Below, in pieces: positions 1 to 978 of a stretch of 36,109 nt of DNA. The translations under genes and the position numbers were made by a program. Below the pieces are notes generated by a model that did no database searches, had not been told where the DNA came from, and saw nothing but the letters and a program-made list of their open reading frames with translations. The stretch comes from Alicyclobacillaceae bacterium (GTDB lineage: Bacteria; Bacillota; Bacilli; Alicyclobacillales; Alicyclobacillaceae). The stretch is from the NCBI GenBank assembly GCA_019683615.1, contig JADGIC010000006.1, forward strand, positions 1-36,109, written 5' to 3'. The stretch's first letter is position 1. Every line of letters starts with the position of its first letter.

Positions 1-83
1 ATCGTTTTTGGCTCAACTTCCGCTGTCGGCTTCGCGGATACCTTCAGAGGCTCAAGTGTCCCATGCTGTTCAACGCAGTTTTT
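1..83 (-). other. Open frame after tnsA, running off the window
   Basis: After the tnsA TGA (84-86), the same frame stays open on the minus strand to the window edge (27 codons). It contains no ATG, GTG or TTG start. The other two minus frames close quickly. It could be the lost C-terminal part of TnsA behind a nonsense codon, or untranslated DNA before tnsB. The residues (rich in K, E and P) do not resemble a known domain, so no function is given. Confidence 0.3.
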
Positions 84-641
84 TCACCGGCCTTCTAAAT
101 CTGCAAGGTTATACGCCTTTCTGACGTAACGAATATTGTCAACCAACGTTTGCGGAATCTCCTTATCCGTAACAATACCCCAAATTGCACCTCTTTGAAC
201 CCAATACAAACGCTCAATTTCGAATTTTTCTACGTCACGGATCGTAATACGGTTATACGGTTTTACTGTTGATACAATAGTCCTTCCGTCTTTGGTTGTG
301 ATCACAAAGTCACTCGTCATGACTACTGGTTCTTTGGTACCTGGTTTCATGGGATGTCTCACACCGATATCTTCGGCAATTTTCAATGTTGCCGTTAGTT
401 CAAGAGGAAATTGCTCGCGTATTTTTTCAACCACGTCTGACCATTCCAGAAGGTATCGGTATTTGGTCTCAATATCCGAAAGAAGGTGAGCAACCCACGG
501 CGTCTTCGAATGAGTAGTTCGAGTTGAGCGACCATGAGATGGGACATCTTTGACAGTCAGACCGGGTATGTATTCCTCACCAGTATCACTTGATACCGTC
601 GTCCCTTCATTGTTAACCCTACTGCGCTTTCTCTTTACCAT
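84..641 (-). CDS. tnsA: TnsA endonuclease of a Tn7-like transposon, short form
   Basis: The 185-residue product matches the TnsA N-terminal endonuclease domain. In Tn7, TnsA cuts the 5' strands at the transposon ends and TnsB cuts the 3' strands, giving cut-and-paste movement. Family signatures are visible: HLLSDIE near residues 52-58, REQFPL at 75-80, an AE..G.RHP segment around 89-97, TSDF at 109-112 and TVKP at 125-128. By analogy to E. coli TnsA (E63, D114, Q130, K132), E58, D111 and K127 are the likely catalytic residues; the Q position is not Q here. The ATG at 641 has a good ribosome site (AGAAGGTG). E. coli TnsA is about 273 residues. This one stops just after the catalytic domain, so the C-terminal TnsC-contacting domain is absent, lost to the TGA, or encoded separately. 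It reads away from glmS, as in Tn7. Confidence 0.88.
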   Translation of the reverse strand: MVKRKRSRVNNEGTTVSSDTGEEYIPGLTVKDVPSHGRSTRTTHSKTPWVAHLLSDIETKYRYLLEWSDVVEKIREQFPLELTATLKIAEDIGVRHPMKPGTKEPVVMTSDFVITTKDGRTIVSTVKPYNRITIRDVEKFEIERLYWVQRGAIWGIVTDKEIPQTLVDNIRYVRKAYNLADLEGR

Positions 642-851
642 GATTTCACCTTCTTGATACGGGTTTCACCCTTACAGACACGAGCAATAGAGGGGAAACC
701 ACTCCTCAAACACCCTAGGAGTTGGCTTCCCCCCCTAACTCAAACTCTCATTTGCGCAACCCGGACGACGGTCTGTCGTACAGTTCCCTCGTGTTTTTCC
801 CTTATCGTTACACAGTTTTATCCAACTATGTCCTCACGTATACCGGAACCA

Positions 852-917
852 GGATAAAACTTTGTTGAACACAGTACAACTTTGTTGTATAGGATACAAC
901 TTTATTGTAACTGCACA
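852..917 (-). repeat. Transposon terminal repeats: three TnsB-type binding sites
   Basis: On the minus strand, three 20-base units lie head to tail at 911-892, 891-872 and 871-852, each with a CAAyAAAGTT core. The G ending AAAG falls at 900, 880 and 860, an exact 20-bp period. Abutting, overlapping sites are typical of the Tn7 right end, whereas the left end has spaced sites. A weaker relative (ATAGTTGGATAAAACTG on minus) lies around 815-836. The middle unit is also a perfect dyad, TACAAC-AAA-GTTGTA, so binding by a dimeric regulator is an alternative reading. The match of the outer end to Tn7 favours TnsB sites. Confidence 0.85.
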
Positions 918-978
918 CGTGTGCTGGCGCAGTCACTCAGTTTACTCGACGGTTACGCTCTTGGCGAGGTTGCGCGGT
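918..978 (-). other. attTn7 target site: insertion point plus glmS 3' end
   Basis: In Tn7, TnsD binds the conserved last codons of glmS, and insertion occurs about 25 bp past the stop. Here the glmS end codes for NLAKSVTVE, the conserved active-site tail. The presumed 5-bp target (918-922) has its midpoint 22 bp from the last base of the stop codon. The spacing and orientation fit the canonical site. TnsD itself is not in the window. Confidence 0.75.

Follow-up and report, generated by a model that had tools for sequence, protein, structure and literature searches.

The window analyzed here comprises 36,109 nucleotides and is the entire contig C161 of an Alicyclobacillaceae assembly (G000; 2.41 Mb, 224 contigs, 85.6% complete). 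Near its left edge lie glmS, the right end of a Tn7-like transposon, the 5' part of tnsA and the end of an insertion sequence (IS), arranged as follows:

1..94: end of a multi-copy IS inside tnsA; its terminal repeat ends ...TTTTTCACCGGCCTT, and the contig stops within the IS
84..86, minus strand: stop codon lying in the IS, at which the truncated tnsA frame ends
95..98: CTAA, putative 4-bp target-site copy of the IS (YTAR)
95..641, minus strand: the first 182 codons of tnsA, with the N-terminal nuclease domain and lacking the C-terminal domain
810-823 / 852-865: inverted pair bordering the right end on its inner side, 14 nt, 93% complementary
855..917, minus strand: transposon right end, TGTG and three TnsB-box-like repeats with a 20-bp period
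914-917, minus strand: terminal TGTG, TGT/ACA-type terminal bases, at the right end only
918..922, minus strand: ACACG, predicted from its position only to be the right-hand copy of the transposon's 5-bp target site
918-941, minus strand: spacer of 24 nt between the glmS stop and the transposon end
942-944, minus strand: glmS stop codon
942..2771, minus strand: glmS, 609 aa, with SIS and GATase domains (Pfam)

A glmS ribozyme is located at 2789-2957. In PMC11406308, the 3' end of glmS is described as attTn7, the target of the Tn7 protein TnsD. The GC content is 44% in 95-917 versus 62% in 918-36109, and the latter value fits the high-GC host proposed in an earlier sequence-only reading of this DNA. 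The range singled out in that reading, 810-978, takes in the final 37 bases of glmS. The predicted RNA fold of 780-941 is unremarkable (z -1.66).

On the minus strand, the sequence 24 nt past the glmS stop is TGTGCAGTTACAATAAAG. The right end of Tn7, as read from plasmid R721 (NC_002525), is TGTGGGCGGACAATAAAG. All 13 of the compared bases are identical and the spacing is equal, in agreement with the Tn7-type terminal bases that the sequence-only reading had described. The pattern TGTG-N5-ACAATAAAG is matched exactly at 900-917. With up to two mismatches allowed, this two-block pattern has one match in the window and a mean of 0.27 in shuffled sequences; it is weak alone window-wide because 24 of 100 shuffles contain at least one match, and here it is exact and located at attTn7. 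Boxes are found at 895-908, 875-888 and 855-868 (0, 0 and 2 mismatches), confirming the three repeats with an exact 20-bp period noted earlier. The box search returned these three matches against a shuffle mean of 0.07, and none of 100 shuffles reached three. The three copies reach an identity score of 46 of 60; shuffling the 300-bp region 2000 times never gave more than 33. As in Tn7-like elements, the insertion is 24 nt beyond glmS with the right end facing the gene, and the end carries a repeat array, here three boxes of putative TnsB-binding type. The typical end bases of such elements are TGT/ACA, according to PMC11406308. In the inverted pair in 810-865, one arm is the third box and the other is a copy of it in the opposite orientation.

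When 642-917 was compared with 55 loci fetched from relatives, seven matches of only 28-43 bases were found, five of them near tns-bearing ends. The other two (L119 and L088, one place in G006) are box-like repeats behind glmS, where no tns gene was seen. Judged by this comparison, 642-917 is not the ancestral sequence behind glmS.

The tnsA frame reads inward from 641, as had been reported. It occupies 84-641 on the minus strand and encodes 185 aa, the final three of which are encoded by the IS, except that tnsA still supplies the opening base of the first of the three codons. The product matches the N-terminal domain family PF08722 (E 1.4e-13) and, over residues 20-173, the solved Tn7 TnsA (1f1z, 1t0f; E 1.2e-30). 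NCBIfam gave a sub-threshold TnsA-like match only. E58, D111 and K127 align with positions 63, 114 and 132 of the Tn7 TnsA chain; we take these to be the catalytic residues. The frame stops where the C-terminal domain ought to begin. By homology, the catalytic domain of TnsA is kept and the C-terminal domain is lost from the frame. A TnsA-type endonuclease gene lies beside the right end, as in other Tn7-like elements, and it is interrupted.

The interruption is caused by a repeat. Bases 1-94 recur on six other G000 contigs, at the very end of C214, C222, C207, C186 and C117 and 208 bases from the end of C57, whose copy lacks one T. Five further contigs, C174, C190, C205, C52 and C68, terminate in the opposite end of the repeat. 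Seven contigs therefore carry one end and five the other, with the common terminus TTTTCACCGGCCTT; weak matches on C90 and C58 (E 0.11 and 0.73; 15-19 bp within the IS) were left out of this count. YTAR abuts all 12 junctions (CTAA in six, CTAG, TTAA and TTAG in two each). The repeat is present in multiple copies, its ends are fixed and carry inverted terminal repeats, and a short motif marks the target; by these sequence features it is an insertion sequence that targets the 4-bp motif YTAR. No relatives of it were found among plasmids, viral contigs or the fetched relative loci, and no transposase was seen on the assembled contig ends, which stop short of the IS interior. The contig ends here because the IS is repeated in the genome, and since the frame ends within this repeat, tnsA is interrupted after codon 182, at about position 95. 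The sequence-only reading had placed unseen cargo simply beyond the left edge; this has to be revised, as the edge is formed by an IS that lies within tnsA. An inverted match between 67-85 and 853-871 (84%) was considered as the left end of a mini-element of about 900 bp and rejected, because 67-85 belongs to the IS repeat.

A copy of CTAA on the far side of the IS was not found. The far junction for the CTAA in the window is expected to read TTAG outward, and two of the five opposite-end contigs, C205 and C68, do so. Neither was accepted as continuing tnsA: a frame joined across the junction meets a stop in no more than about 45 codons, and both contigs carry other genes (tpx/leuCD-like and guaB-like, read from translations without family search). 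When 11 contig stretches were searched by tblastn with 29 TnsA frames from relatives and with the TnsB, TnsC, TnsD and TniQ proteins of G015, no match had an E value under 0.013. The best match, on C52, was discarded as well, since it runs in the wrong direction, toward the IS, and the TTAA flank of C52 does not fit CTAA. The remaining weak matches have E values of 0.018-0.89.

The rest of the element was also sought throughout G000. A single-protein search for TnsB gave no match in this assembly, 85.6% complete. A TnsB profile built from six relatives (A1), which matched all three held-out tns-bearing genomes (G053, G068, G070), was silent in G000 and also in G014 and G007. A single-protein search for TnsC, run without a positive control, gave no match in G000. 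The TniQ family PF06527 was likewise silent there, a weak negative because none of 14 controls matched either. A TnsA scan of genome_contigs found one distant locus only, and a search of G000 for the left-end pattern returned the known right end alone. No homologue of the gene behind glmS in G014, used without a control as a marker of the left flank, was found in G000. The left end and the tnsB, tnsC and tnsD/tniQ-type genes predicted in the sequence-only reading were thus not recovered, and a complete transposon is not demonstrated. The rest of the element may have been deleted, or it may lie on contigs that were not binned.

Elements of the same kind are present in relatives. TnsA matched in 24 of the 151 genomes searched, G000 included. 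Leaving out the two matches in G000 itself, the open frames of tnsA are 262-358 aa long, except in L010 (205 aa) and in the contig-end fragment L031 (152 aa). At seven relative loci glmS lies inside the 1.5-kb flank of tnsA, and it is 1.9 kb off in G070; glmS-tnsA distances in the other tnsA-bearing relatives mostly do not enter this count. TGT is found 24 or 25 nt past the glmS stop at six of the seven loci, the exception being L026. With eight relatives carrying tnsA within about 2 kb of glmS, this kind of element is already known. G015 (L125), G101 (L034) and G134 (L039) have tnsABCD in full order behind glmS, and so does G070 (L036), where the tnsB match is partial. These four resemble the window in the order glmS, end repeats, tnsA. 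They differ from it in that tnsB, tnsC and tnsD follow tnsA, tnsA is full-length, and the boxes vary in detail. The most similar glmS (81%), that of G014, is followed by a different sequence and gene, and G014 has no TnsA match.

The closest TnsA (55%) belongs to another element in G015, L033, and is also matched by the C-terminal domain family PF08721. This element contains tnsABCD and a second TniQ protein. Unlike in the window, glmS was found in neither of the stretches fetched around it (3.5 kb and 19 kb); the sole glmS match in G015 is about 100 kb away. Beyond its tnsABCD-TniQ block, L033:3518-7008 encodes an AAA ATPase and then a subtilase (Peptidase_S8), possibly cargo. At L006 in G134, a tnsA-like start behind glmS is cut about 200 bp in, apparently by the AATAAAG boxes of a second element, and a full tnsA is found further on; we read this as nested insertions at attTn7. 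At L010/L041 (G120:C269), glmS-linked tnsA homology ends early, with the 205-aa frame, near the contig start. Distant TnsB-like matches (23-25% identity) at L114, behind glmS in G008, and L166, near a mini-element in G020, suggest other transposon types.

Our survey also revealed small elements in related genomes, several of them immediately behind glmS. Box-bearing sequence starts 26-34 nt past the glmS stop at nine of 29 relative glmS loci (28 genomes). This sequence is part of a mini-element about 500 bp long, T[GA]T[GC]TTCG...[CT]ACA, which is apparently gene-free; one of its ends carries TnsB-box-like repeats, and it has a terminator-like hairpin. In a search with a 451-bp probe at E 1e-6, full or partial matches were obtained in 24 of 61 genomes and none in G000. 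The 27 fetched loci contain 14 near-full copies in 10 genomes, among them:

L122:929-1423: mini-element in G003
L164:3512-4013, L164:4075-4576 and L163:16334-16835: mini-elements in G036
L171:4962-5460: mini-element in G041
L120 and L124: mini-elements in tandem at glmS

The three G036 copies are identical over 502 bp, and their longest ATG frame is 59 aa. The single copy in G041 is flanked by an exact 5-bp duplication, CAAAC; other single copies have no exact 5-bp match at their ends as set. In G036 (L164/L163, G036:C1 about 395.5-460.8 kb), a pair of identical copies brackets about 65 kb including tnsABCD. The outer flanks of the pair share CCAAG, and removal of the insert restores another mini-element; the shared CCAAG lies inside a third, split mini-element. 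Either the block moved whole, or a smaller insertion was followed by recombination between copies. In 3.5-kb stretches around tnsA, the tnsA-bearing ends of G036, G017, G011 and G020 contain nothing close to the mini-element box; box matches with two to four mismatches occur near tnsA at L029, L033, L035 and L036. In a small set of open-licence literature, as far as its texts were accessible to us, no description of gene-free Tn7-like mini-elements of about 500 bp was found. We tentatively propose, while leaning against it on balance, that attTn7 is a shared pad in this family, at which full Tn7-like elements alternate with mini-elements that some Tn7-like machinery would have to move in trans. 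The element in the window would then be a larger occupant of the pad, a competitor or former helper. Its end sequence is unlike the mini-element ends, and the helper role is therefore unsupported.

The window and the Tn7 of R721 share the terminal TGTG-N5-ACAATAAAG, repeated boxes, an inward tnsA, TnsA homology and the glmS target, and a Tn7-like right end indeed sits at attTn7, as first proposed. The differences are that the R721 copy sits on a plasmid, that Tn7 has four partly overlapping 22-bp sites (PMC11406308) where the window has three boxes with a 20-bp period, and that in the window tnsA is split by an IS and tnsBCDE are not seen. We consider it very probable that a Tn7-like transposon inserted at attTn7 and that its tnsA was later cut by the YTAR-targeting IS. 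A cut-and-paste element would have entered 24 nt past the glmS stop, with the right end and tnsA beside glmS in the standard orientation. From knowledge of the family, a TnsD-type TniQ protein would choose the 3' end of glmS, the three boxes at 855-908 would serve as TnsB-binding sites, and TnsA and TnsB together would cut at TGTG. The later insertion after codon 182 would have left the nuclease domain and cut the C-terminal domain off the open frame, and the remainder of the transposon would lie, or have lain, beyond the IS. The element is probably disabled and no longer mobile, and none of its cargo is seen.

How much of the transposon persists is a related question. The IS, or recombination between its copies, could have deleted everything from tnsB onward, leaving the right end and half of tnsA. 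The multi-copy IS favors such a reduced transposon, as do the empty single-protein TnsB and TnsC and TniQ family searches and the A1 profile, which found its target in every held-out genome and not in G000. However, the lost part may simply not be binned in an assembly of this completeness and fragmentation, and at least three of the five A-end CTAA junctions of the IS lack a partner contig, so that some contigs are absent in any case. We regard the deletion as a real possibility, if somewhat below an even chance. A complete mobile element with a nuclease-only TnsA ending naturally at 185 aa would account for the open frame and for E58, D111 and K127 aligning with Tn7 TnsA, but the stop of the frame lies in the repeat common to other contigs, the frames of relatives are longer with the two exceptions given above, and the closest relative has PF08721; this is very unlikely. 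Chance resemblance of AT-rich DNA behind glmS, with no transposon at all, could draw on the shuffles in which the two-block pattern arises with two mismatches. It is refuted by the adjoining tnsA, and the match is exact and at the right place, with 20-bp repeats that no shuffle reproduced; we give this explanation almost no weight.

The preferred reading, a transposon at attTn7 cut by an IS, settles what lies at the window edge: a Tn7-like element whose transposase gene is broken, and no open door to unknown cargo. It also provides a case in which a repeated IS ends a contig within a transposon and a truncated gene looks intact. The element in the window is ordinary in kind, and the mini-elements are an unrelated side find. 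The latter could be used to test Tn7-type mobilization of gene-free DNA and successive insertions at attTn7.
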